From contig CAISET010000001.1 of the NCBI GenBank assembly GCA_903884505.1, positions 1-64,000 on the forward strand: a DNA stretch of 64,000 bases, given 5' to 3'. The notes beneath the pieces are model-generated. The model was not told the DNA's origin. It ran no database searches and saw nothing but the letters and a program-made list of their open reading frames with translations. Origin of the DNA: an uncultured Microcaldota archaeon. Its GTDB lineage: Archaea > Micrarchaeota > Micrarchaeia > Burarchaeales > Fermentimicrarchaeaceae. Of this stretch, positions 3,198-53,610 are shown piece after piece. The translations under genes and the position numbers were made by a program. Position 1 is the stretch's first letter, and the number at the start of each line of letters is the position of its first letter.

Positions 3198-3659
3198 ATG
3201 CAGGAAACTTTCCAATATGCGGGCACGGTGGAATCGCTGCGCGACAAGCTGAAGCAGGGGCTTAGGGATTCTGCGGTGGTTGAGCTCAAGGAAGGAAAGC
3301 TCCGGGTTGCACGGCCATCCTTTTGGAACAGCACTGTAGCGCGCATTGAGGCGGATGGGAAGAATGTGGCGGTCAGCGTTGACAGTTCCATGAATGCGGT
3401 GCCGATTATGTTGGGGTTTCTTATGTTCGGAATCGGGGTCTTGTTTACCGGCACTTACGCGGCAGGCAAAAAGCGCGGGAATAATGAGCGCCTCCTGGCA
3501 GACATAAAAGCAGCCCTCGGTGTGAGAACGAACATCGTGAGCCGCCGCTGGGTGTCTATGCTTGGCGGGGCAAAGCTGCTCTGCTCAAAGTGCCGCAGTG
3601 AAGTGAAGAAGGAGGATAAGGCATGCCCGAAGTGTAAAGGAGTTTTCAGGAAGGACTAG
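3198..3659 (+). CDS. Membrane protein with C-terminal zinc ribbon (CSKC...CPKC)
   Basis: ORF with hydrophobic segment and CxxC pairs; GGAGG upstream of ATG 3198. Confidence 0.65.
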   Translation: MQETFQYAGTVESLRDKLKQGLRDSAVVELKEGKLRVARPSFWNSTVARIEADGKNVAVSVDSSMNAVPIMLGFLMFGIGVLFTGTYAAGKKRGNNERLLADIKAALGVRTNIVSRRWVSMLGGAKLLCSKCRSEVKKEDKACPKCKGVFRKD

Positions 3660-3681
3660 TTGGGGTGTGGAGGTTAGAGTT

Positions 3682-5259
3682 ATGGCTGGCGACGTAGTTG
3701 TCAAGCGTGCACTTATCAGTGTCAGCGACAAGACCGGCGTGGTTGAGTTCGCCAAGGAGCTGCAGGCGAGCTTCGGCGTTGAAATACTCTCTACCGGAGG
3801 GACTGCAAAGGCGCTCAGGGCAGGCGGCGTGAAGGTGAAGGACGTCTCCGAATACACGGGCTTCCCGGAAATGATGGATGGAAGAGTCAAGACATTGCAC
3901 CCGAAGATTCATGGCGGGCTGCTCGCGCTCAGGGGGAACCCGAAGCATATGGAGGAGGCGAGGAAGCAGGGGATTGAGATGATTGATTTGGTGGCCGTGA
4001 ATCTTTATCCGTTTGAGGCAACGGTTGCCAAGCCCGGGGTGAAATTGGAGGAAGCCGTGGAAAATATAGATATCGGCGGGCCGTCGATGGTGAGGAGCGC
4101 GGCGAAGAACTTTGAAAGTGTTGCGATTATTACGAACCCGGCAAGGTATGGGGATGTGCTGACTGAGATGCGCGCGAAGAAGGGGGCAGTGGGCAGCGAG
4201 ACGAGGAAAAGATTGGCATTTGAGGCGTACATGCACACGGCGAGGTATGACTCGGCAATCAGCAACTACCTCTATAACTCATTCAAGGGGATAGTGGAGA
4301 AGTTCCCGCCTTTCCTGCCGATGAGCTTCATCCATGCGGAGAAATTGAGGTATGGGGAGAACCCGCACCAGGAGGCTGCGCTCTACAAGAGCGTGCCGCC
4401 GTCTCCGGAGCCATGCATGGCGAATGCCGTGCAATTGCAGGGGGAGAAGGAGATTGGCTACAACAATGTGCTGGACGGGGATTCGGCGCTGGAGCTGCTC
4501 AGGGAATTCAACAGCGATGGGCCTGCTGCGGTTGTGGTGAAGCACAATAACCCGTGCGGCGTTGCCCTGGGGAAAAGCCTGAGGGATGCGTTCGTGAAGG
4601 CGAGGGCAACCGACATTGAGGCCGCGTTCGGGGGAGTCGTTGCGCTGAACGAGACTGTGGGCGGGGATACGGCGAGGGAAGTGATTACGCAGCTGACGGA
4701 CGTGATTATTGCGCCCGACTATTCGCCCGATGCGCTGGAAACCTTCAAGCAGAGGAAGAATATGAGAGTCATGAAGGTGGGGGAGATTAAGAAGGCGGAG
4801 AGAAGGCCGAAGATTGAGTTCAGGAGCGTTGTTGGCGGAGTGATTGCGCAGGACAAGAACGAAGAGCTGTGGAAGGAGATGAAAGTCGTGACAAAGAGGG
4901 CGCCGACAAAGGAGGAGATGGAGGCGCTCAAATTCGCAATTAAGGTTTGCAAGCATACCAAGTCGAATGCTGTGATCTATGCCAAGCCAGGATATACGGT
5001 TGCGATTGGGGCGGGGCAGATGAAGAGGGCCGATTCCTCGAGATTGGGAGCCATGAAGGCAATTGAGAGCTTGAAAGGCGCGTCTGTGGCTTCGGATGCG
5101 TTCTTCCCGTTCAGGGACGCGATTGACGTGATTGCGCAGACTGGGGCGACCGCGATTGCGCAGCCGGGCGGCTCAATTAGAGATAAGGAAGTGATTGACG
5201 CCTGCAATGAGAAAGGGATTGCGATGGTGTTCACCGGAGTGCGGCATTTCAAGCACTAG
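3682..5259 (+). CDS. purH: Bifunctional AICAR formyltransferase / IMP cyclohydrolase
   Basis: Full-length PurH-like protein (ALISVSDKTGVVEFAKEL..., STGGTAKAL, KTLHPKIHGG, RYGENPHQ, KHNNPCG, QPGGSIRDKEVIDACNEKGIAMVFTGVRHFKH). Confidence 0.95.
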   Translation: MAGDVVVKRALISVSDKTGVVEFAKELQASFGVEILSTGGTAKALRAGGVKVKDVSEYTGFPEMMDGRVKTLHPKIHGGLLALRGNPKHMEEARKQGIEMIDLVAVNLYPFEATVAKPGVKLEEAVENIDIGGPSMVRSAAKNFESVAIITNPARYGDVLTEMRAKKGAVGSETRKRLAFEAYMHTARYDSAISNYLYNSFKGIVEKFPPFLPMSFIHAEKLRYGENPHQEAALYKSVPPSPEPCMANAVQLQGEKEIGYNNVLDGDSALELLREFNSDGPAAVVVKHNNPCGVALGKSLRDAFVKARATDIEAAFGGVVALNETVGGDTAREVITQLTDVIIAPDYSPDALETFKQRKNMRVMKVGEIKKAERRPKIEFRSVVGGVIAQDKNEELWKEMKVVTKRAPTKEEMEALKFAIKVCKHTKSNAVIYAKPGYTVAIGAGQMKRADSSRLGAMKAIESLKGASVASDAFFPFRDAIDVIAQTGATAIAQPGGSIRDKEVIDACNEKGIAMVFTGVRHFKH

Positions 5260-7185: not shown

Positions 7186-7751
7186 TGAAGGTTCTTGTTG
7201 TTGATTTCGGAAGCCAGTGGACTCATAGGATACATAGGACGCTGAAGTACTTGGACGTGGAGTCGAAAATTGTTCCCGTGAGCACGCCGCTGGAGGAAGT
7301 TCGGAAGGCGGACGCACTCATCTTGTCGGGCGGGGCGCTGAGGATTGGATTGGGAGATGCGCCGCAGACCGGGAATGCCGGCGAGTATGCGGATAATTTT
7401 GGCGGGCCGATGCTGGGCATTTGCGCGGGGCAGCAGTTCATCGGCTTGCATTTCGGTGGGAAAGCCAGACCCTGCAAGGTGCCAGAGTTCGGGAAAGTGG
7501 AGATTATTGTTGACGAGAAGGATGAGCTGTTCGCGGGGCTGCCGGAGAGGTTCATCGCCTGGGCGAGTCATAACGACGAGGTTGTGGAGACGCCGGGCTT
7601 CAAAATTCTGGCGCATTCGAAGGACTGCTCGAACCATGCCTTCAAGTCGCTGAAGAGGCCCATTTATGGGTGCCTTTTCCATCCCGAAGTTGAGCATACG
7701 GAGCACGGGAGCGAGATTTACGCCAACTTCCTGAAGTTGGCGAAGAAGTAG
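7182..7751 (+). CDS. guaAA: GMP synthase glutamine amidotransferase subunit
   Basis: Class I GATase: LGICAGQQFIGL, HPEVEHTEHGSEIYANF; ATGA overlap with the upstream subunit. Confidence 0.92.
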   Translation: MMKVLVVDFGSQWTHRIHRTLKYLDVESKIVPVSTPLEEVRKADALILSGGALRIGLGDAPQTGNAGEYADNFGGPMLGICAGQQFIGLHFGGKARPCKVPEFGKVEIIVDEKDELFAGLPERFIAWASHNDEVVETPGFKILAHSKDCSNHAFKSLKRPIYGCLFHPEVEHTEHGSEIYANFLKLAKK

Positions 7752-7789: not shown

Positions 7790-8004
7790 GCAGGGGTGGC
7801 AGAGCCTGGTCAAATGCGACGGACTCAAGCGACCCTTTTCCCACCCGATATCGGGCTACCGCCGCGTTCGGCAGGGTAAAAGCGTCGACGGAAAATGGGA
7901 AGAGTGGTTCGAGAAATCCGTTGTCTTAGGACTGCGTGGGTTCAAACGCGATTTTGCTGGCGCAAAAGGCGCCTTCAACTTCGTTGAATTTCCCTCCCCC
8001 TGCA
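7790..8004 (+). tRNA. tRNA-Leu(CAA) with two introns: 7830-7915 (37/38) and 7947-7990 (T-loop 59/60)
   Basis: Acceptor GCAGGGG/CCCCTGC, A73; anticodon stem ACGGA/TCCGT, CAA at 7826-7828; Leu-type long variable arm. Removing both introns restores T-loop TTCAAAT. Confidence 0.9.
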
Positions 8005-23161: not shown

Positions 23162-23175
23162 CAAGCCCCCGGCGA
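23162..23175. repeat. Copy of the tRNA-Thr 3' end (CAAGCCCCCGGCGA), att-like direct repeat with 23422-23435
   Basis: Exact 14-bp match to the 3' end of tRNA-Thr 260 bp away, same orientation. Confidence 0.6.
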
Positions 23176-23177
23176 AG

Positions 23178-23297
23178 TTTTTAGTTGAGGTTTTTACCAT
23201 ATCGCCGGAGCGAGCCCCAGTGCAACTGCGCAACACCCTCAGGTGTTGCGGGAGACGCGCATTGGGTGCGAGCGACGAGCGATTGGGAAAAAAGTCA
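23178..23297. repeat. tRNA-3'-end-associated hairpin unit, distal copy at the tRNA-Thr locus
   Basis: TTTTTAGTTGAGGTTTTTACCATAT ... GCGATTGGGAAAAAAGTCA; internal nested hairpin GCAACACC-CTCA-GGTGTTGC inside CCCAGTGC/GCATTGGG. Confidence 0.7.
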
Positions 23298-23422
23298 TTT
23301 TTAGTTGAGGTTTTTACCATATGGCAGCGAGCGAGCCGCAGACACGCTGCGAGCGAGCGTTGGCAACCGCAGTTGCCAACATTTCGCCGCTAGGCGAATT
23401 TGTTGCCATGGGAAAAAAGTCA
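23298..23422. repeat. tRNA-3'-end-associated hairpin unit, proximal copy at the tRNA-Thr locus
   Basis: Same 25-bp start, exactly 120 bp after the first copy, same GGGAAAAAAGTCA end, different hairpins (GTTGGCAAC-CGCA-GTTGCCAAC, TCGCC/GGCGA). Confidence 0.7.
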
Positions 23423-23541
23423 AGCCCCCGGCGAGAGTCGCACTCGCGGCCTACTGCTTGCGCGCCCTTCTTTTCCGTTAACGCTTTTCTTCGGAAGAAA
23501 AGGGTTACAAGGCAGTCGCTCTACTGCTGAGCTACGGGGGC
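23423..23541 (-). tRNA. tRNA-Thr(TGT) with 47-nt intron at 23459-23505
   Basis: GCCCCCG/CGGGGGC acceptor, ACTGC CTTGTA|intron|A GCAGT, GCGAG TGCGACT CTCGC T-arm. Confidence 0.88.
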
Positions 23542-30690: not shown

Positions 30691-30898
30691 GCGGGGGTGC
30701 CGGAGCCTGGAAAACGGGCAGGGCTTAGGAAGCCTTTCTTCGGTTGCCCGCTCGACTACCGTCGAGGGGCATGTCCTAAGAAACCCTTGGGAAAGAAGAG
30801 CTGAGGAAACCCTGTGTCTTAGGACTACGCGAGTTCAAATGCGTGTTCGCTGCGCGAACAGCCGCTTCAGCGACGCGCTGAATCTCTCGTCCCCCGCA
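30691..30898 (+). tRNA. tRNA-Leu(TAG) with two introns: 30730-30808 (37/38) and 30840-30884 (T-loop 59/60)
   Basis: GCGGGGG/CCCCCGC acceptor, A73; CAGGG CTTAGG|intron|A CCCTG; GCGAG TTCAAA|intron|T CTCGT. Confidence 0.9.
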
Positions 30899-31015
30899 CT
30901 TTTTTCCCAATCGCCCGGGGCTCCCGCACCCGGCGATACGCGATTTGCGCTGCGGCGCAAATGCGCCCCTTTGCCCGAAGGGCAAATCGGGTGGTAAAAA
31001 CCTGCACTAAAAACT
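30899..31015. repeat. tRNA-3'-end-associated hairpin unit downstream of tRNA-Leu(TAG)
   Basis: Starts CTTTTTTCCCAATCGC right after A73, ends TGGTAAAAACCTGCACTAAAAACT; hairpins 30943-30962 and 30970-30986; borders match the tRNA-Thr units in the same orientation relative to the tRNA. Confidence 0.65.
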
Positions 31016-36258: not shown

Positions 36259-36421
36259 GCCGGGGTGGCAGAGCCAGGTATTGCGCCAGACTTGAGGGGC
36301 CCTTTTCCGATGCGTCGTCGCTGACGCTCCTCGCAGAGCGTAAAAGCGCCCGCGGAAAATAAGGGCTTGCGAAATCTGGTTGCCCGCAAGGGCAGTATGG
36401 GTTCAAATCCCATCCCCGGCG
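36259..36421 (+). tRNA. tRNA-Ser(TGA) with 77-nt intron at 36297-36373
   Basis: GCCGGGG/CCCCGGC acceptor, G73, CCAGA CTTGAG|intron|A TCTGG, long variable arm GCCCGCAAGGGC, T-arm ATGGG TTCAAAT CCCAT. Confidence 0.92.
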
Positions 36422-44598: not shown

Positions 44599-47500
44599 TT
44601 ATTTTGGCACCTTGTATACCTTCCCGGCACCGTAGTCGGTAAAGTAGACGTTGCTGCTATCCACCGCGATGCCGTAAGGGCGGCTCAGGCTACCGACAAG
44701 GGTGGTCACGTTACCGCCTCCTATCGGAACCTTGTCCACATTTCCACCATCAAACTCGGCGAAGTAAACGTAGCTGCTGTCAACCGCTATTCCGTAAGGG
44801 CGGGAGCCGCGAGCAAGGGTGGTTACGCTCCCGCCCCCTATCGGAACTTTCTTCACGTTCCCGCCACTAGCCTCGGTAAAGTAGACATAGCTGCTGTCAA
44901 CCGCTATGCTTTCCGGACCGCTCAGGCCGCTGACAAGGGCTGTCACGGTTCCGCCTCCTATCGGCACCTTGTACACTTTCCCGTCGCCATAGTCGGTGAA
45001 GTAGACGTTGCTGCCGTCAACCGTGATGCCATCCGGCTCTCTCAGGCCGCTGGCAAGGATGACCACAGTCCCGCCCCCTATCGGCACCTGGTCCACTTTC
45101 CCGCTATTATCCTCGGTGAAGTAGACGTTGCTGCTGTCAAGCGCTATGCGGGTCGGTCCCCTCAGGCCAGTGGCAAGGGCTGTCACGCTCCCGCCGCCTA
45201 TCGGCACCTTGTCTACCGCCGCGCCGCTATACACGGTGAAGTAGACGTAGCTGCCGTCAACCGCTACGTCGTACGGGGAGCTCAGGCCGCTGGCAAGGAC
45301 TGTCACGTTCCCGCCTCCTATCGGCACCTTGTCCACGTTCCCCCCATTATTATCATCAAAGTATACGTTGCTGCTATCTACCGCTATGCCGGTCGGAACG
45401 CGCAGGCCGCTGGCAAGCAGTGTAGGACAGACGGCATCGGGCGGGCAGGAGCAGAGCCAGCCGCAGGAATCCCTGCTGCCGCATGTGTTGCCAAGGTCGT
45501 TGTTCGGGGTATGGCTCGGGCAGGAGAAATCGTAATTCGTGTTGTCCGTTGCCGTGTTGCTCGTGAGGTTATTTCCAGTGGCGGAGTCAAGGCGGATGCC
45601 GGAGTCCCTGTTTGAATCTGCGATGTTGCCCGTGATGTTGTTGCTGTTCGCGCTCTGCAGCCAGATGCCGAAGTAGGTGTTTGAATTAAAGCTGTTGTTC
45701 AGGATGTTGCTGTTGCTGGCGGCGGTGAGATAAGCGCCGTAGTAGAAGTTGCTCACTACGCAATTCTTCACGGTCGCTTTGTTGACGCTGTTCAGGTGGA
45801 TGCCGACGTTGTAGCCGGTGCCCGTGATGCTGCTGCCATTGCAGTCGAGCGTCACCTGATTTGCCGTGATGTCTATGCAGTCATGGCCGTTTGAAGTAAG
45901 GCCGCTTGCGTTGATTGTATAGTTGCCGGGAGCGTTAAGGGTGCATGGGCAGGAGCCCACCACCCCGCCGGGGGCGCACGCGGGTGGGGGAGGGCAGCTC
46001 GAGAGCCAGCCGCCTTCGGGGATGCTGCAGTCCCATTCCGTGGTGCAGGTGTTGCCGAGGTCGTTGTTGGAATCCAGGGTGTTGCAGTAGAAGCCATAAA
46101 CGGCCGTTGCCGTGTTGTCCGTGAAGTTGTTGTTGCCTGAAGATGAGAGGAAGAAGCCATGGTTGCCAGCCGCAGTATTCCGCGTCAGGGTGTTGTTATT
46201 GGAGCCTTGCAGCGATATGGTTTCGTATCCCGATGCGTTGTTGCCGGTGAGGTTGTTGCCGCTTGAGGCTGCGAGGGCAATGCCGTAGTAAGTGCGACCG
46301 AGGGATATGCAGGTATTGTCCGTGATGTTATTGTCGTTTGAATAAACGAGGTTGATGCCGTAGTAGTCATTGTTTGCGATGTTGCCCACAAGGTTGTTGC
46401 TGCTTGAAGACTCCAGGTAGATGCCCATCTGGTCATTCGAGCTTGCATCGTTGCCAGACAAGTAACTCCAGTTGGAATAGGACAACTCGATGCCAAGGTA
46501 GCTGTTGAACGTCACATTGTTGCCCGTGAGGTTGTTGCTATTGCTTGAATCGGCTATGATGATTCCATATTGAGAGTTTGAAGTGGCGGTGTTTCCGTTG
46601 ATGCTATTGCCGTTGGAGGACTCCAGGTAGATGCCGTCGTAGTCCGAGCTGGCGGTGTTGCCCGTCAGGGTGTTTCCGTCCGCAGCATTTAGGGTGATGC
46701 CATACCTGAAGCTGCGCGGCTTGCAGTTCTGCACTACCACCCTGCTTGTCCCGTTCAGGTAGACTCCGCTGTATTCGCCGTTTTGCCCAGGGCCTACAAA
46801 CAGGTGGTTATGGCAGTCAAGGGTGACGTCAGTCGCATTTATTGTTATGCCGTTGCAGGCATCGCACACAATGTCGTCGTTTACCACCCACGCTCCCGAG
46901 GTCGTGATTGTCCCACCGCAGCCGCTGCAGACCCCATCCGCGCACGTGCCTGAGCATGCCGCCAGAGGGCAGCCCGCACCGCAGGAGGTGCTGTTGGAGC
47001 AGACCATGTTCTCGCCCTCCGGAGTGCAGACGTTGCCGCCTCCGTCGTTCTGCGGATCGACGCAGAGGAGGTTGCTATTGCCGTTGAGGCAGGCGTAGTT
47101 GCCCGCGAAGTTGTTGCCGCTTGAGCCGGAATCGATGATGATTCCGTTGTTGTTAAGGCTTACTTGATTGCCCGTGATGTTGTTATCGCTCACGTAGCTC
47201 AGGTAGATGCCGCCGTAGGGTATGCCATTCATGCTTACGGTGTTGTCCGCAATGCTGTTGCCATTGGAGGACTGCCCGTAGATGCCGGCATACGCGTTCG
47301 AGCTTATGGTGTTGCCGGTTATGTTGTTGCCGTTAGAGGAACCGAGTTGTAAGCCATAGCTGTCCGAGGTCACGGTGTTCCCTTCGATGAGGTTGTTGTC
47401 GGAGCTGGTTACGGTGATGCCGTAGAAGTTTGAGCTGACGGTGTTGCCCGTGAGGTTGTTGTTGTTGCTTGAGGAGAAAAGGCCGATACCGTATTGGTTG

Positions 47501-49146
47501 TTGGAATTGGCGGTGTTGCCGCTTATCGTGTTGGTGTCGCAAGAGCCATCAAAATCGAAGCCGTAGGTGTTCGAGTTTACGGTGTTGGACGTTATCGCGC
47601 TGCCGGACATGCCATACACGTAAATACCCGTGGTGAAGTTGCTCACGTTGCAGTTCTCGACACTCACTCCGCTTATGCTGTAGGTATTCCAGTTTACTAT
47701 CTGCATGCCGTTGCCCCCGCCCCGGCCTGTGATGCTGTGGTGCTTGCAGTCGAGCTTCGCATCATTTGCCGTGATGTATAAGCAGTCTCCTCCTGTGGAA
47801 GCCAGATTGCTTCCCATCGTGTAGTTGCCGGGTTTATTCAGAATGCAGCCGCAGGAGCTCACCACCCAGCCTGGGGCGCATGCTGGAGGTGGAGGTGGCG
47901 GGCAGCCGGAGTTGCAGGTGATGCTGTCCAAGCATGTAGTCTCTCCGTATGGCATGCAGATGTTGCCATTGCCCTCGGTTTGGGGCACGTCGCATTGGAT
48001 GTCCGCCTGGTTCCAGCAGGCGGTGTTGCCGGTGAGCAGGTTGTTGCTGGAACCCGAGTCCGCATAGATGCCGTAGGAGTTGCTGCTTGCGAGTGCAGTG
48101 TTACCCGTGAGGTTGTTGTCCGTTGCGGAGGCGAGGTAGATGTTGATATTGCTGTTCGAGTTGGCGGTGTTGCCGGTGACGATGTTGGCCGCACCATTAA
48201 GAATGATACCCATGTCAGCGTTCGAACTGGCTGTGTTACTTGTTATGGTATTATTGCTTGACGAGGATGCGTAGATGCCGTCCTGGTTCGCGTTGGCGGT
48301 ATTGCCCGTAATGGTGTCGTAGTTGGAGGACTCCAGGTAAATGCCGGTCCAGAAATTAGTTACCGTACAGTGCCTTACCGTTACTTCTGTGGCGCTTTGC
48401 AGGTAAATGCCGATGCCGCTATACTGGTAGATGCTGCTGTTGATGGTGTGGCCGTAGCAGTCCAGAATAGAGTTGTTGGCATCCGCGGTTATGGTTATGC
48501 AGTACCCCCCATCGGTGTCGTTCAGGTCGCTGTCAAGATAATAATAGCCGGGCTGGTCGTAAACCTGGCCGCATCCCGTAAGGTTTATCGCTCCGGGCGG
48601 CGGAGTGGGGAATGGTGTCGGGCTTCCACTTGGCTGAATGACGGACGCTGGCTCAAGCCTCGCGTTTATGTCTCCGCAGACTAGTCTTTGAGTATTGGTG
48701 CCTGATTCGGTATAGCTGACGCAGGCTGTTCCTTTGTATCTAGCGCCTGCCTCGCCCGTTGCGCCCTCGCACGCGATTCCAGTATTGGGGGAGGTTCCTC
48801 CTGTTATCCACCTGTGCTCTCCTGAGGGGACCGTGATGTCTTCCACAAGGGGAGACGTATGAAGCGCGGCAGTTGAGTTCTGGGAGCAGGAGATGCCTGT
48901 GACTTGAATGGACCTGCCCGTTGCCTGGCCGAAGTCAAGCTCCAGGGAACCGGTCACATTTCCGACTTTGAAGGTGTAGCAGGAGAAGCCTGGTTGGAAG
49001 AGGCAGGTGTTCGGCGTGGTGTTCTGGGGGCTTAGCACGCCGATGTAGAAAAGAACGGCAAGAAGAATGACGACTACGAGGATGGCCCAGCCGTTGGTGA
49101 TAAGAAACTCAATAGCTGCCTGGCCACGGGCGGATTTGCCGGTCAT
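44599..49146 (-). CDS. Giant surface protein: class III (pilin-like) signal peptide, multiple beta-helix modules, C-terminal 7-repeat beta-propeller
   Basis: ARGQAAIEFLITNGWAILVVVILLAVLFYIGV; repeated GNNLTGNTANSN modules separated by CAPGWVVSSCGCxLxxPGxYTL; C-terminal VYFTDYGxGKVYKVPIGGG repeats. Confidence 0.9.
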   Translation of the reverse strand: MTGKSARGQAAIEFLITNGWAILVVVILLAVLFYIGVLSPQNTTPNTCLFQPGFSCYTFKVGNVTGSLELDFGQATGRSIQVTGISCSQNSTAALHTSPLVEDITVPSGEHRWITGGTSPNTGIACEGATGEAGARYKGTACVSYTESGTNTQRLVCGDINARLEPASVIQPSGSPTPFPTPPPGAINLTGCGQVYDQPGYYYLDSDLNDTDGGYCITITADANNSILDCYGHTINSSIYQYSGIGIYLQSATEVTVRHCTVTNFWTGIYLESSNYDTITGNTANANQDGIYASSSSNNTITSNTASSNADMGIILNGAANIVTGNTANSNSNINIYLASATDNNLTGNTALASSNSYGIYADSGSSNNLLTGNTACWNQADIQCDVPQTEGNGNICMPYGETTCLDSITCNSGCPPPPPPACAPGWVVSSCGCILNKPGNYTMGSNLASTGGDCLYITANDAKLDCKHHSITGRGGGNGMQIVNWNTYSISGVSVENCNVSNFTTGIYVYGMSGSAITSNTVNSNTYGFDFDGSCDTNTISGNTANSNNQYGIGLFSSSNNNNLTGNTVSSNFYGITVTSSDNNLIEGNTVTSDSYGLQLGSSNGNNITGNTISSNAYAGIYGQSSNGNSIADNTVSMNGIPYGGIYLSYVSDNNITGNQVSLNNNGIIIDSGSSGNNFAGNYACLNGNSNLLCVDPQNDGGGNVCTPEGENMVCSNSTSCGAGCPLAACSGTCADGVCSGCGGTITTSGAWVVNDDIVCDACNGITINATDVTLDCHNHLFVGPGQNGEYSGVYLNGTSRVVVQNCKPRSFRYGITLNAADGNTLTGNTASSDYDGIYLESSNGNSINGNTATSNSQYGIIIADSSNSNNLTGNNVTFNSYLGIELSYSNWSYLSGNDASSNDQMGIYLESSSSNNLVGNIANNDYYGINLVYSNDNNITDNTCISLGRTYYGIALAASSGNNLTGNNASGYETISLQGSNNNTLTRNTAAGNHGFFLSSSGNNNFTDNTATAVYGFYCNTLDSNNDLGNTCTTEWDCSIPEGGWLSSCPPPPACAPGGVVGSCPCTLNAPGNYTINASGLTSNGHDCIDITANQVTLDCNGSSITGTGYNVGIHLNSVNKATVKNCVVSNFYYGAYLTAASNSNILNNSFNSNTYFGIWLQSANSNNITGNIADSNRDSGIRLDSATGNNLTSNTATDNTNYDFSCPSHTPNNDLGNTCGSRDSCGWLCSCPPDAVCPTLLASGLRVPTGIAVDSSNVYFDDNNGGNVDKVPIGGGNVTVLASGLSSPYDVAVDGSYVYFTVYSGAAVDKVPIGGGSVTALATGLRGPTRIALDSSNVYFTEDNSGKVDQVPIGGGTVVILASGLREPDGITVDGSNVYFTDYGDGKVYKVPIGGGTVTALVSGLSGPESIAVDSSYVYFTEASGGNVKKVPIGGGSVTTLARGSRPYGIAVDSSYVYFAEFDGGNVDKVPIGGGNVTTLVGSLSRPYGIAVDSSNVYFTDYGAGKVYKVPK
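44602..45430 (-). repeat. Seven ~120-bp tandem repeats encoding a beta-propeller
   Basis: Seven copies of xLASGLxxPxGIAVDSSNVYFTxxxGGNVDKVPIGGGxVT. Confidence 0.85.
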
Positions 49147-49264
49147 ATGCTTGGGAAGTTGGCGGAGGCGACTTAAAAGGCTTTTCGACTTTGCAGAATG
49201 GAGCCGTTTTCCGTTGACGCTTTTAGGACACGGAGTTCCGTTCCAGAAGTTAATGCCGAATTAT

Positions 49265-49335
49265 TTGCGGAACGCAACTCCGTGATATGAGCGCACGAAG
49301 AGCGAGCCGCTCTGCTGACGAGCGGTGCGCTCAAC
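49265..49335. repeat. GAGCGAG-box hairpin element between the two adhesin genes
   Basis: GAGCGCA...AGAGCGAGCCGCTCTGCTGACGAGCGG...TGCGCTC; core close to the 36027 element. Confidence 0.6.
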
Positions 49336-49344
49336 CGAAAAGGG

Positions 49345-52300
49345 TCATGGGCAGGTATTTGTGGGGCAGCTGCAAATCCAGTTGCAGGAATCCTTGCTGC
49401 CGCAGGTGTTGCCGCCGAGGTCGTTGTTCGTTGGCGAACTGATGCAGTAGAAGTCATTGTTTGAATTGGCTGTGTTGCCCGTGAAGTTGTTGTTGCTCGA
49501 GGAGTCAAGGAAGATGCCGTAATTGTTTGAGCTGACGGTGTTGCCTGTGAGGATGTTGTACATGTTTGATGAGTCAAGGTAGATACCAATGTTATTTGAA
49601 TTAGCGGTGTTGCCCGTGATATTGTTGCCGCTTGACCCTTGGTATAAGTAAATGCCAATGCCGTTTGAATTGGCGTTATTGTCCGTGATGTTATTGTTGT
49701 TTGAAGACCAGACATATATGCCATAGCGGCTGTTTGAATCGGCAGTGTTGCCTGCGAAGTTGTTGCTGTTGCTTGATGGAGTTAGGAAGATGCCATACTG
49801 ATTTGAATTGGCGGTGTTGCCTGTGAGGTCGTTGTTGGTCGAGGCGGAAAGTTCGATGCCGCGGTCGTTTGAATTGGCGGTGTTGCCCGTGATGATGTTA
49901 TTGCTGTTTGAAGATGATAGCCAGATGCCATTGTTGCTGTTCGAATTGGCAGTGTTGCCGCTTATGGTGTTGCTGTCGCAATGGTTGTCAAGATAGATGC
50001 CGTAGCTGTTCGAATTGGCGGTGTTGCCCGTGATGTCGCTGCCATTTGAGCTGAGCATGTAAATGCCTTCGTTGTTCGAACTGACGTTGCTGTTCAGGAT
50101 GCTGCTGCCGTTTGAGTTCCGTAGAATGATGCCAAAACCAAAGTGGTTCACGTTGCAGTTGTACACGGAAACGCCGCTTACGCCATCAAGGTTAATCCCG
50201 GCATAGTTCCCCTGCCCACTGAGGCTATGGTGCTGGCAGTCCAGCGTGGAGCCGCTGCTTGCCGGGGGGATCGTTATGCAGTCGTTGTTTCCGTTTAGAG
50301 TTAGGTCGCTGTCCAAGGTGTATGCGCCTGCCGGCCAGAGCGTGCATGGGCAGGAGTTCACTACATAGCCGGAGGCACAGGCTGGCGGCTCGGGCGCAGG
50401 GCAGCCGGAACCGCAGGTGATACCGCAGTTCGCCTGCGTGTTGCAGTTGTTTCCGCCATTGTCCGCCTGGCTTGAATCGCAGTAAAGGTCCCCGTATGGA
50501 TTGCTGCACATACTGTTGTCTGTAAAGTTGTTGTTGCTCGACGAGTAGAAGTAGAGGCCATAAAGGATATTGCTGCTTACGTCATTGCCCGTGAAGGTGT
50601 TATTGCTTGAGCCCCACAAGTAAAGGCCGTCGTAAAAGTTGCTGACGCCGCAGTTCTCCACAGTGACACCACTCACACCGCTAAGGAAAATACCTGGATA
50701 CCCTAGATGGAGTGGAGACCCGCTGATGCTGTGGTGCTGGCAGTTGAGCGTGGTGCCGTTGCTTGCAGGCGGAATTGTTATGCAGTAGTTGTTGCCGTCT
50801 AAGGTTAAGTTGCTGTTCAGGGTGTATGTGCCTGCAGGGTAAAGCGCGCATGGGCAGGAGTTCACTACATAGCCCGAGGCGCAGGATGGCGGCTGAGGCG
50901 CAGGGCACTCGGAGCCGCACGTGATGCCGCAGCCCGCCTGAATGTTGCAATTGTTTCCGCCATTGTCTATCTGGCCTGAATCACAGTAAAGGTCCCCGTA
51001 TAGATTGCTGCATGCGTTGTTGTCCACGAGGTTATTGTCATTGCTCGAAGAGTCTAAGTAGATGCCCTTGTAGGTGTTCGAGTTGGCGGTGTTGCCGCTT
51101 ATGGTGTTGTTGTTCGAGGAGGAGAGTTCGATGCCGCCGTAGTCTGAATTGGCGGTGTTGTCCGTTATATTGTTGTTGTTTGAAGACACCAATATGATAC
51201 CCCCATCTGTGTTTGATTTGATAGTGTTGCCGCTTATGGTGTTGTTGTCGCAAGCGCCAGTAAAATAGATGCCGACGCCGTTCGAGCTGAAGTTGCTGTC
51301 TCTTATCACGCTGTCAGACATGCCATATGCGTAGATAGCAGAGCTAAAGTTGCTCACGTCGCAATTCTCAACGGTCACTCCGCTTATGCTGTTAGTATTC
51401 GGGTTGTATAACGCGATGCCGCTGCCCCCATTTTGGTTTGTAATGCGGTGGTGCTGGCAGTCGAGGTTCGCATCATCTGCTGTGATGCTTATGCAGTTCA
51501 CACCTTGTGTTTCGGTGAGGTCGGTTCCAAGCGTGTAGTTGCCGGGAACGCCCAGCACGCACTCGCAGGAGCTTACAACCCAGCCGGGGGCGCACGCAGG
51601 CGGCTCGGGCGCAGGGCAGCCGGAGTTGCAGGTGATGCTGTCCAAGCATGCGGTGCTTCCCTCAGGCATGCAGATGTTGCCGTTACCATCGTTCTGGGGC
51701 GAATCGCAGTAGACGTCCCCCATGTTCCAGCAGGCGGTGTTGGTGGTGAGGGTGGTGCTATCCGAGCCGGATAGGTAAATGCCGAGGTTGGCGTTCTGAT
51801 TGGCGGTGTTGTCGGTTAGGTTGTTGCCGGAAGAAGACATCACGATGAGCCCACAGTCGGCATTCGAATTGGCAGTGTTGCCCGTGATATTATTGTTGTT
51901 CGAGGAATACAGGTAGATGCCTTCGCCGTTTGAGTTTGCGGTGTTGCCGGTGAAGTTATTGTCATTTGAAGACTGCACGTAGATGCCAAGGCTGTTTGTA
52001 TTCGAGCTGACATTGTTGCCAGTTATCGCGCTGCCGGACATGCTTTGTGCGAAGATGCCCGTGCTAAAGTTGCTGACACGGCAGTTTTGGACAGTCACTT
52101 CGCTTATGCTGCCGGTATTCGGGTTGTATAAGTAGATTCCGTTGCCCGCGCCCTGGCCTGTGATACTGTGGCCCCGGCAGTCGAGCTTCGCGTCATTTGC
52201 CGTGATGCCCAAGCAGTCTCCGCCCAGTGTTTCGGTGAGGTCGCTTCCAAGCGTGTAATCTCCGGGAACGCTTAGCACGCATCCGCAGGAGCTTACAACC

Positions 52301-53610
52301 CAGCCGGGCGCGCAGTCGGGGGGCGGCAGGGGCGGGCAGGTTGGGTTGCAGGTGATGCTGCCCGAGCACACTGTTCCCCCGTATGGCGTGCAGATGTTGC
52401 CGTTGCCATCAGTTTGGGACACATCGCAGTAGAGATTGTTATTATAGTTCCAGCAGGCAGTATTGCCTGTGAGCAGGTTGTTGCTTGAACCGGAGTCTGC
52501 GTAGATACCGATGTTGCCGTTCCCCATGACAGTGTTGCCCGTGAGGATGTTGTCGTTGCTTGAACCGACTACGACAATGCCATAATTGGCGTTAGAATCT
52601 ATGGTGTTGCCCGTGACGTTAGTGTAGGTTGAAGTCTGCATGTAGATACCCGTGTCGCCGTTCGAGTTGATGGTGTTGCCAGCGATAATGTTATTGTTGC
52701 CTGGGGTGCTTGCAGCGTACATATAAATGCCCTCAGAGTTTGAGTTGATAGTATTGTCCGTGATGGTGTCGTAGTTGGAGGACTCCATGAGGATGCCCAT
52801 CGAAAAGTTGGTGATGACGCAATGCCTCACGGTTATGTTGCTTGCGGTATTCTGCAGATAGATGCCGATGCCGGTCCATTGGTTGGTACTGCTGAGGGTA
52901 TGGCCGTAGCAGTCCAGTATGGAATTGCTGGCGTCCGCAGTCATGTGTATGCAGTGGCTGCCATCGGTGTCGTTCAGGTCGCTGTCAAGATAGTAGTAGC
53001 CTGGCTGGCTGTAAACCTGCCCACACTCCGTAATATTCAACGCTCCGGGCGGAGGCGTGGGGTATGGCGTTGGAGTCGGGCTTCCGGTTGGCTGAAGGGT
53101 GGATGCCGGCTCGAGCCTCGCGTTTATGTCTCCGCAGATTAATCTTTGGGCATTGGCGCTGGATTCGATGTAATTGATGCAAACTGTGCCCTTGTACCTG
53201 CTACCTGCCACGCCTGTCGCGCCTTCGCAGATGATGCCGCTGTTGTTGGAAGTTCCCCCGGCAATCCAGCGATGCTCTCCTGAGGGGACTGTGATGTCTT
53301 CCGCAAGGGGAGACGTATGAAGCGCGGCAGTTGAGTTCTGGGAGCAGGAGATGCCTGTGACTTGAATGGACCTGCCCGTTGCCTGGCCGAAGTCTAGTTC
53401 TAAACTGCCGGTGCCATTCCCCACTTTGAAGGTATAGCAGGAGAAGCCCGGTTGGAAGAGGCAGGTATTCGGCGTGGTGTTCTGGGGGCTGAGCACTCCG
53501 ATGTAAAAGAGGACGGCAAGAAGAATGACGACTACGAGGATTGCCCAGCCGTTGGTGATAAGGAATTCAATGGCGGCCTGAGCGCGGTTGTTACTGCTTC
53601 TGATGCCCAC
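49345..53610 (-). CDS. Giant surface protein: class III (pilin-like) signal peptide plus multiple beta-helix modules
   Basis: NNRAQAAIEFLITNGWAILVVVILLAVLFYIGV; tandem CAxGxVVxSCxCxL + beta-helix modules; paralog of 44599-49146. Confidence 0.9.
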   Translation of the reverse strand: MGIRSSNNRAQAAIEFLITNGWAILVVVILLAVLFYIGVLSPQNTTPNTCLFQPGFSCYTFKVGNGTGSLELDFGQATGRSIQVTGISCSQNSTAALHTSPLAEDITVPSGEHRWIAGGTSNNSGIICEGATGVAGSRYKGTVCINYIESSANAQRLICGDINARLEPASTLQPTGSPTPTPYPTPPPGALNITECGQVYSQPGYYYLDSDLNDTDGSHCIHMTADASNSILDCYGHTLSSTNQWTGIGIYLQNTASNITVRHCVITNFSMGILMESSNYDTITDNTINSNSEGIYMYAASTPGNNNIIAGNTINSNGDTGIYMQTSTYTNVTGNTIDSNANYGIVVVGSSNDNILTGNTVMGNGNIGIYADSGSSNNLLTGNTACWNYNNNLYCDVSQTDGNGNICTPYGGTVCSGSITCNPTCPPLPPPDCAPGWVVSSCGCVLSVPGDYTLGSDLTETLGGDCLGITANDAKLDCRGHSITGQGAGNGIYLYNPNTGSISEVTVQNCRVSNFSTGIFAQSMSGSAITGNNVSSNTNSLGIYVQSSNDNNFTGNTANSNGEGIYLYSSNNNNITGNTANSNADCGLIVMSSSGNNLTDNTANQNANLGIYLSGSDSTTLTTNTACWNMGDVYCDSPQNDGNGNICMPEGSTACLDSITCNSGCPAPEPPACAPGWVVSSCECVLGVPGNYTLGTDLTETQGVNCISITADDANLDCQHHRITNQNGGSGIALYNPNTNSISGVTVENCDVSNFSSAIYAYGMSDSVIRDSNFSSNGVGIYFTGACDNNTISGNTIKSNTDGGIILVSSNNNNITDNTANSDYGGIELSSSNNNTISGNTANSNTYKGIYLDSSSNDNNLVDNNACSNLYGDLYCDSGQIDNGGNNCNIQAGCGITCGSECPAPQPPSCASGYVVNSCPCALYPAGTYTLNSNLTLDGNNYCITIPPASNGTTLNCQHHSISGSPLHLGYPGIFLSGVSGVTVENCGVSNFYDGLYLWGSSNNTFTGNDVSSNILYGLYFYSSSNNNFTDNSMCSNPYGDLYCDSSQADNGGNNCNTQANCGITCGSGCPAPEPPACASGYVVNSCPCTLWPAGAYTLDSDLTLNGNNDCITIPPASSGSTLDCQHHSLSGQGNYAGINLDGVSGVSVYNCNVNHFGFGIILRNSNGSSILNSNVSSNNEGIYMLSSNGSDITGNTANSNSYGIYLDNHCDSNTISGNTANSNSNNGIWLSSSNSNNIITGNTANSNDRGIELSASTNNDLTGNTANSNQYGIFLTPSSNSNNFAGNTADSNSRYGIYVWSSNNNNITDNNANSNGIGIYLYQGSSGNNITGNTANSNNIGIYLDSSNMYNILTGNTVSSNNYGIFLDSSSNNNFTGNTANSNNDFYCISSPTNNDLGGNTCGSKDSCNWICSCPTNTCP

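Follow-up and report, generated by a model that had tools for sequence, protein, structure and literature searches.

Two short hairpin units lie in tandem directly beside a tRNA-Thr gene of an uncultured Microcaldota archaeon, between the 3' end of this gene and a detached copy of the same 3' end. Both units belong to a family of hairpins that is dispersed over the genome and is present in diverse archaea. We propose, with a probability of roughly 0.45, that the array consists of two tandem, non-autonomous mobile elements with a tyrosine integrase-like mode of integration at the 3' ends of genes.

The array beside tRNA-Thr

The tRNA-Thr(TGT) gene occupies positions 23423 to 23541 on the minus strand of the window, by which we mean the whole stretch of 64,000 nucleotides that was analysed. 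It was detected by Rfam (RF00005, 54.4 bits) and by ARAGORN with introns allowed, and it carries an intron of 47 nt in the anticodon loop. In the direction of this strand, unit 2 (23298 to 23422, minus strand, 125 bp) abuts the tRNA 3' end, unit 1 (23178 to 23297, minus strand, 120 bp) comes next in tandem, and the detached copy of the tRNA 3' end (23162 to 23175, minus strand, 12–14 bp) forms the far border of the array. The window contains the corresponding 14-mer, CAAGCCCCCGGCGA, at 23162 and 23421 and at no other position, with 0.05 expected from shuffles. An initial annotation, made from the letters alone, had recognised this exact repeat; its first position is correct, and the second has to be moved from 23422 to 23421. 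The first two letters of the right copy (23421–23422) double as the last two bases of unit 2, and the part that strictly belongs to the tRNA thus comprises 12 bases.

Each unit opens with the 25-mer TTTTTAGTTGAGGTTTTTACCATAT (at 23178 and 23298, a spacing of exactly 120 bp; expected 0) and closes with GGGAAAAAAGTCA (at 23285 and 23410). Both identities had been claimed before and are exact, and it is likewise correct that the units contain different hairpins: their interiors are unlike each other and both fold, the minimum-energy structures forming the stem of the family with z-scores of -4.0 and -4.75. According to grammar match and fold, both have the end triplet TGA and the core TCAA, and a third, miniature element of 37 nt with the end triplet TAA and the core TTAA lies in the tRNA-Thr intron (23471 to 23507, minus strand). 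A mismatch follows the triplet in the minimum-energy folds of all three. An Rfam scan of the units, at the gathering score and with E values up to 1, matched nothing except tRNA; we rejected units 1 and 2 as a known RNA family or as tRNAs, as the Rfam and tRNA scans matched only tRNA-Thr. The units themselves are devoid of genes.

A hairpin family with covarying ends

On the tRNA strand, the members of the family share the grammar NNR-CCC-TTTT-C-SS at the left end and S'S'-T-AAAA-GCG-YNNR-CGG-AAAA at the right end, with conserved mismatches and with interiors that measure only a few bases in some members and some 350 nt in the longest. Units 1 and 2 of the array represent a variant of this grammar (TGA-CTTTTTT left, AAAAACC-TCAA-CTAAAAA right). 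For the analysis of covariation, right ends were gathered without any requirement for pairing, the nearest upstream CCCTTT was located and the triplet preceding it was compared with the right triplet. Both triplets were complementary in 27 of 28 cases in the own genome, in 40 of 44 in related genomes and in 77 of 89 in named genomes, where chance predicts one in 64. Eight core types occur among 28 elements of the own genome; the first base of the core is complementary to the last one in 29 of 29 elements, and the inner dinucleotides are paired in 24 of 26 as compared to a shuffled mean of 9.5. We regard the hairpin family, its stem with the covariation and its archaeal spread as established. 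The family is apparently undescribed so far: an earlier description was not found in the open-access literature searched by motif sequence and by keyword. Its motif is easily searched for, and the covarying triplet provides a testable prediction on target recognition.

The genome from which the window was taken (1.51 Mb on 37 contigs, of which the matched stretches were read) contains 36 stretches that match the array. When as many as three mismatches were allowed, the 25-mer was recovered 10 times and the related end TTTTCCGTTAACGCTTTT 42 times (control: 7); the right-end motif AAAAGCGNNNNCGGAAAA has 31 matches (control: 0). Further members are present in the window itself. One with the end triplet CGA (7830 to 7895, plus strand) lies apparently in the intron of a tRNA-Leu that was read by eye, and one with the end triplet GCA (30896 to 31013, plus strand) is located probably 3' of an intron-rich tRNA, the context again being read by eye; neither of these two tRNAs was called by the tools used. 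By grammar match, a third with the end triplet GGG (36297 to 36359, plus strand) sits in the intron of a tRNA at 36259–36421, and the end triplet TGA (49345–49347) of a fourth (49207 to 49347, minus strand) is at the same time the stop codon of the ORF 49345–53610. Note that this ORF is one of two adjacent, huge and repeat-rich ORFs in the window (44599–53610; 1515 and 1421 aa) with NxxTGN repeats and near-identical N-termini, which are likely beta-helix surface proteins.

Spread and genomic contexts

In other genomes of the same class AAAAGCGNNNNCGGAAAA has up to 16 matches in a patchy distribution, with almost none for the reversed control. Among pattern matches in named public genomes, a matching left end was present in 73 of 91 archaeal stretches vs none of 25 bacterial ones, the bacterial matches serving as a built-in negative control. 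The archaeal bearers comprise Methanophagales, Aenigmatarchaeota, Diapherotrites, Micrarchaeota, Altiarchaeota, Parvarchaeota, Methanocellales, Thermoplasmata and others. Elements inside tRNA genes (8 in the own genome, 20 in relatives and 12 in named genomes, with a few duplicates among them) are all on the tRNA strand and none is antisense. Others are found at tRNA 3' ends, at stop codons and in frame within genes, many of them within a few bases of a tRNA end or stop codon; beside protein genes they occur in both orientations, and T-runs flank the hairpin on either strand.

In the own genome and in the related genome G003, the tRNA-Lys genes have a common upstream sequence, and the elements that they hold at the corresponding position are not the same; the G003 element is nearly identical to the element in the tRNA-Thr intron of the own genome. 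At four loci right-end motifs are stacked, as if newer copies had inserted at the edges of earlier ones. A virus or plasmid as the vehicle was discarded: no match was obtained among plasmids or phages, a 20-base core of the 25-mer is found neither in viral contigs nor in other GTDB genomes, and 14 of 15 end-motif matches in viral contigs have no left end, the sole real element lying at a tRNA. Inverted copies of the target beside the element were also dismissed, their enrichment being slight and probably due to tRNA introns.

Some copies have unusual surroundings. In a stretch from contig C25 (position 1370 of the stretch) an element is located in the D-loop of a tRNA, an odd position for an intron, and is flanked by TCGAATGG and TCGACAATGG. 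In a stretch from contig C29 (around 3600–3840 of the stretch) the 5' end of tRNA-Thr(GGT) is duplicated over 18 bp ahead of an element; the complete gene lies downstream of both and has a further element on its 3' side. In Methanophagales and other archaea, minimal elements are present in frame in ORFs (in one stretch at 7591–7729) and encode peptides such as KAFTEK or KALTEK; genes for IS200-like transposases and HEPN-like genes are examples of such ORFs.

Duplicated gene ends and empty sites

Most elements are without any duplication. In a position-anchored test, strong gene-end duplications were detected for 3 of the 36 elements of the own genome (expected 0.12) and, at a score of at least 10, for 5 of 112 elements in other genomes (expected 0.36); duplications of 25, 33 and 49 bp came from this test. 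Deoxyhypusine synthase, recognised separately, brings the protein genes with a duplicated end in the own genome to four, the others being the gene for triosephosphate isomerase, a pyrF/pyrE-like gene (C15) and one on C28. The fifth is a thioredoxin gene, read by eye across the break between contigs C19 and C28. The duplicated block extends from the precise end of the element to the end of the stop codon or to within one or two bases of it, and the tRNA-Thr array follows the same plan over 12–14 bp. The initial annotation had described the array as a non-autonomous cassette with a duplicated target end. This part is supported by equivalent arrangements at several protein genes, two of these sites being empty in a relative; the array is, however, not a one-off tRNA cassette, as its units belong to a large archaeal family that also resides in tRNA introns and at stop codons, usually without a duplication.

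The gene for deoxyhypusine synthase is the one case that was worked out in detail, within one draft genome. In G003 (91% protein identity) the gene has a single end encoding MMAGALG* and no element, and the downstream sequence is shared. In the own genome, the gene continues from codon 281 into an 81-bp end that encodes MLAGALY*, followed by an element and then by a detached end that encodes the same MMAGALG* as in G003. The GC3 value of the 81-bp end is 0.41 vs 0.74 in the gene before it, and that of the detached end is 0.78. Judged by these sequence comparisons, the 81-bp end is foreign and the detached end is the old native one, and the foreign tract seemingly begins where the native end resumes. 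For triosephosphate isomerase, one gene end and no element are present in G003. The own genome has two ends and two elements before the next gene, which is the same as in G003. At both genes, a second element follows the native end. The duplicated gene ends differ chiefly at synonymous sites, which indicates that both were functional until recently; such a divergence fits the integration of DNA with a foreign gene end and does not fit the decay of a simple duplication. An isolated deoxyhypusine synthase end in G004 was not accepted as a remnant of this kind, as it lies where a contig stops, in line with a broken assembly.

The search for empty sites, proposed in the initial annotation for tRNA-Thr, was thus successful at deoxyhypusine synthase and triosephosphate isomerase in G003; an empty orthologous tRNA-Thr site was not found in related genomes. 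In G002, which has the closest ABC-transporter gene, synteny is broken upstream of that gene, and this genome thus yielded no empty tRNA-Thr site. The outcome that had been named as contradicting a mobile cassette, units that are fixed everywhere with never an empty site, did not materialise.

Mechanistic models

We assume that the element would consist of little beyond a folded hairpin with self-matching end triplets, and that such units would integrate at the 3' ends of tRNA and protein genes in the fashion of tyrosine integrases. The missing gene end would be carried by the incoming DNA, and the gene would be rebuilt in such a way that the imported end is followed by the hairpin and then by the old end, now detached. 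In the case of tRNA-Thr, the last 12–14 bp of the tRNA would be the part that is duplicated. In an excised circle, AAAAAAGTCA would be connected to the imported gene end. The hairpin, in which the end triplets pair and mismatches are conserved, most likely serves as the recognition site for a trans-acting recombinase, and we infer a mobile intermediate of gene end and hairpin, the recombinase itself and recognition of the folded form. This model is favoured because of the dispersed copies, the covariation, the gene-end duplications, the empty sites and the foreign end, and also because of the turnover of elements between tRNA-Lys and tRNA-Thr introns, the stacked right ends and an intact tyrosine recombinase gene. 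Against it stand the majority of elements without a duplication, the tRNA-Thr site for which no empty counterpart was found, the size of the units inserted at protein genes (about 130–260 bp), which is very small for a conventional integrase substrate, and the fact that the gene end differs from one unit to the next, a range that a single integrase normally would not accept. The recombinase, and with it the link of element and enzyme, is a candidate only.

The statement that a recombinase is absent applies to the tRNA-Thr locus but not to the genome, which has three Phage_integrase matches. One of them is in an intact gene for a 408-aa tyrosine recombinase on contig C36, near a tRNA whose intron holds an element; a candidate for an enzyme in trans, as the initial annotation had recommended to look for, is thus encoded elsewhere in the genome. 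In the stretch read from this contig (2344–4699 of the stretch) a tRNA-Leu-like gene lies shortly before the recombinase gene, and the 3' end of this tRNA occurs in two copies (CCCCCTGCACTCAG.CCTAGACTCAGAGCAG). The 5' part of the tRNA-Leu-like gene is overlapped by an ORF of 258 aa that has no Pfam match and may encode a homing endonuclease.

A further and more tentative proposal is that the family represents an unreported class of minimal mobile elements that is spread throughout archaea. Its members, the smallest of about 30 nt, would be defined by covarying triplet and mismatched stem, would move among tRNA introns, gene 3' ends and reading frames and could import gene ends, using a novel enzyme or a novel RNA route.

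Alternatively, segments of foreign gene end and element could have entered by homologous recombination upstream and microhomology joining downstream, elements already lying downstream of genes in related species and no dedicated enzyme moving them from one locus with a duplication to another. Each duplicated end stems from its own gene, which suggests transfer from the homologous locus; the imported deoxyhypusine synthase end shares its last residues (MLAGALY) with G002, and the native ends of deoxyhypusine synthase and triosephosphate isomerase already bear a second element. We nevertheless consider such an import rather unlikely: the join is always at the precise end triplet of the element, the apparent start of the foreign tract at deoxyhypusine synthase coincides with the resumption of the native end, as in a point insertion, and the dispersal over many genes and introns is left unexplained.

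The exclusive tRNA-strand orientation inside tRNA genes, the bulged intron stem in the fold of pre-tRNA-Thr and the movement of elements between different tRNA introns would also be in agreement with a mobile family of archaeal tRNA introns of the bulge-helix-bulge type, which is spliced from pre-tRNA and spreads as RNA, the gene-end copies being landings outside tRNAs. An intron stem beside the exon borders of the pre-tRNA, the trait of this type, is seen for tRNA-Thr and for other intron copies; units 1 and 2 are located outside the tRNA. The copies near protein genes in both orientations, those in frame in ORFs, the foreign gene ends that are not accounted for and a genome without RVT_1 make this route improbable. 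The reverse transcriptase domain RVT_1 (PF00078) was found in three control genomes and is absent from the own genome, and a retroelement was rejected for this reason.

A miniature casposon, inserted by a Cas1-type integrase in trans, would duplicate 14–15 bp by the 3' end of a tRNA gene, as does the casposase of A. boonei (PMC6614799), and the tRNA-Thr repeat indeed measures 14 bp. Such an origin is conceivable for the tRNA locus but very improbable overall, as a duplication of fixed length and exact sequence was not found: the other duplications are far longer (25, 33, 49 and 81 bp) and recoded, some with strong synonymous divergence, and no casposon genes were seen. Least probable of all are bidirectional transcription terminators or small RNAs with flanking repeats as by-products, which would fit the T-runs on both strands and the many copies near tRNA ends and stop codons, but neither require covarying end triplets nor agree with a relative that has no elements at two orthologous gene ends, with elements in tRNA introns and in frame in ORFs, and with the lack of an Rfam match.

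Relation to known systems

The attL and attR sites of archaeal tyrosine-integrase elements such as SSV and pNOB8 (PMC3293823, PMC6563490) resemble the loci described here in their targets, tRNA genes and the 3' regions of protein genes, as well as in the duplicated target end, the imported gene end and the empty sites in relatives. Besides tRNAs, thaumarchaeal elements also target protein genes in their 3' regions (PMC6563490). The direct repeat of a target end is represented in our data by the tRNA-Thr 14-mer, by three loci of the own genome beyond chance and by deoxyhypusine synthase, and an empty site in a relative by deoxyhypusine synthase and triosephosphate isomerase in G003, not by tRNA-Thr. 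In contrast to SSV and pNOB8, the hairpin units of about 130–260 bp have neither an integrase gene (the nearest intact one is on contig C36) nor cargo, and one family is found at many genes. In Caldiarchaeum, the gain of a tRNA intron has been explained by a model in which an element integrates whose attP differs from attB (PMC3293823). The disrupted tRNA-Thr of this organism is similar in that a mobile element is linked to intron gain and to duplication of a tRNA fragment; that insertion has 1.8 kb and encodes a recombinase, whereas the hairpin is gene-less and occurs across archaeal phyla.

REP/BIME sequences, which are moved in trans by RAYT, are likewise short hairpins with mismatched stems beside genes. 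They differ from the present family, which has a variable, pairing triplet and no fixed tetranucleotide, and a REP/RAYT system was rejected since the genome has no Y1 transposase gene; Y1_Tnp (PF01797) was found in five control genomes. Integron attC sites have a folded, imperfect stem in common with the hairpins, the ends of which do not fit RYYYAAC / GTTRRRY. Rickettsia palindromic elements are small palindromic repeats that are spread genome-wide and inserted in frame in ORFs. Compared by description, the hairpin family shares these two properties and differs by being archaeal, by its covarying end triplet and by being common in tRNA introns.

If correct, our proposal would provide a concrete sequence signature for a small mobile element in the tRNA introns of many archaea and would bear on the open question of how archaeal tRNA introns arise. 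It would also mean that tiny, gene-less units can exchange the 3' ends of core genes. Note that in the Aenigmatarchaeota genome B55_G9 (minus strand, near 4624 of the stretch read) an element apparently lies within a 16S rRNA gene, inside a long stem. The 16S rRNA gene on contig C29 of the own genome (3949–6110 of the stretch read) exceeds the Rfam archaeal model by about 700 nt and has an intron-like insert near its 3' third.
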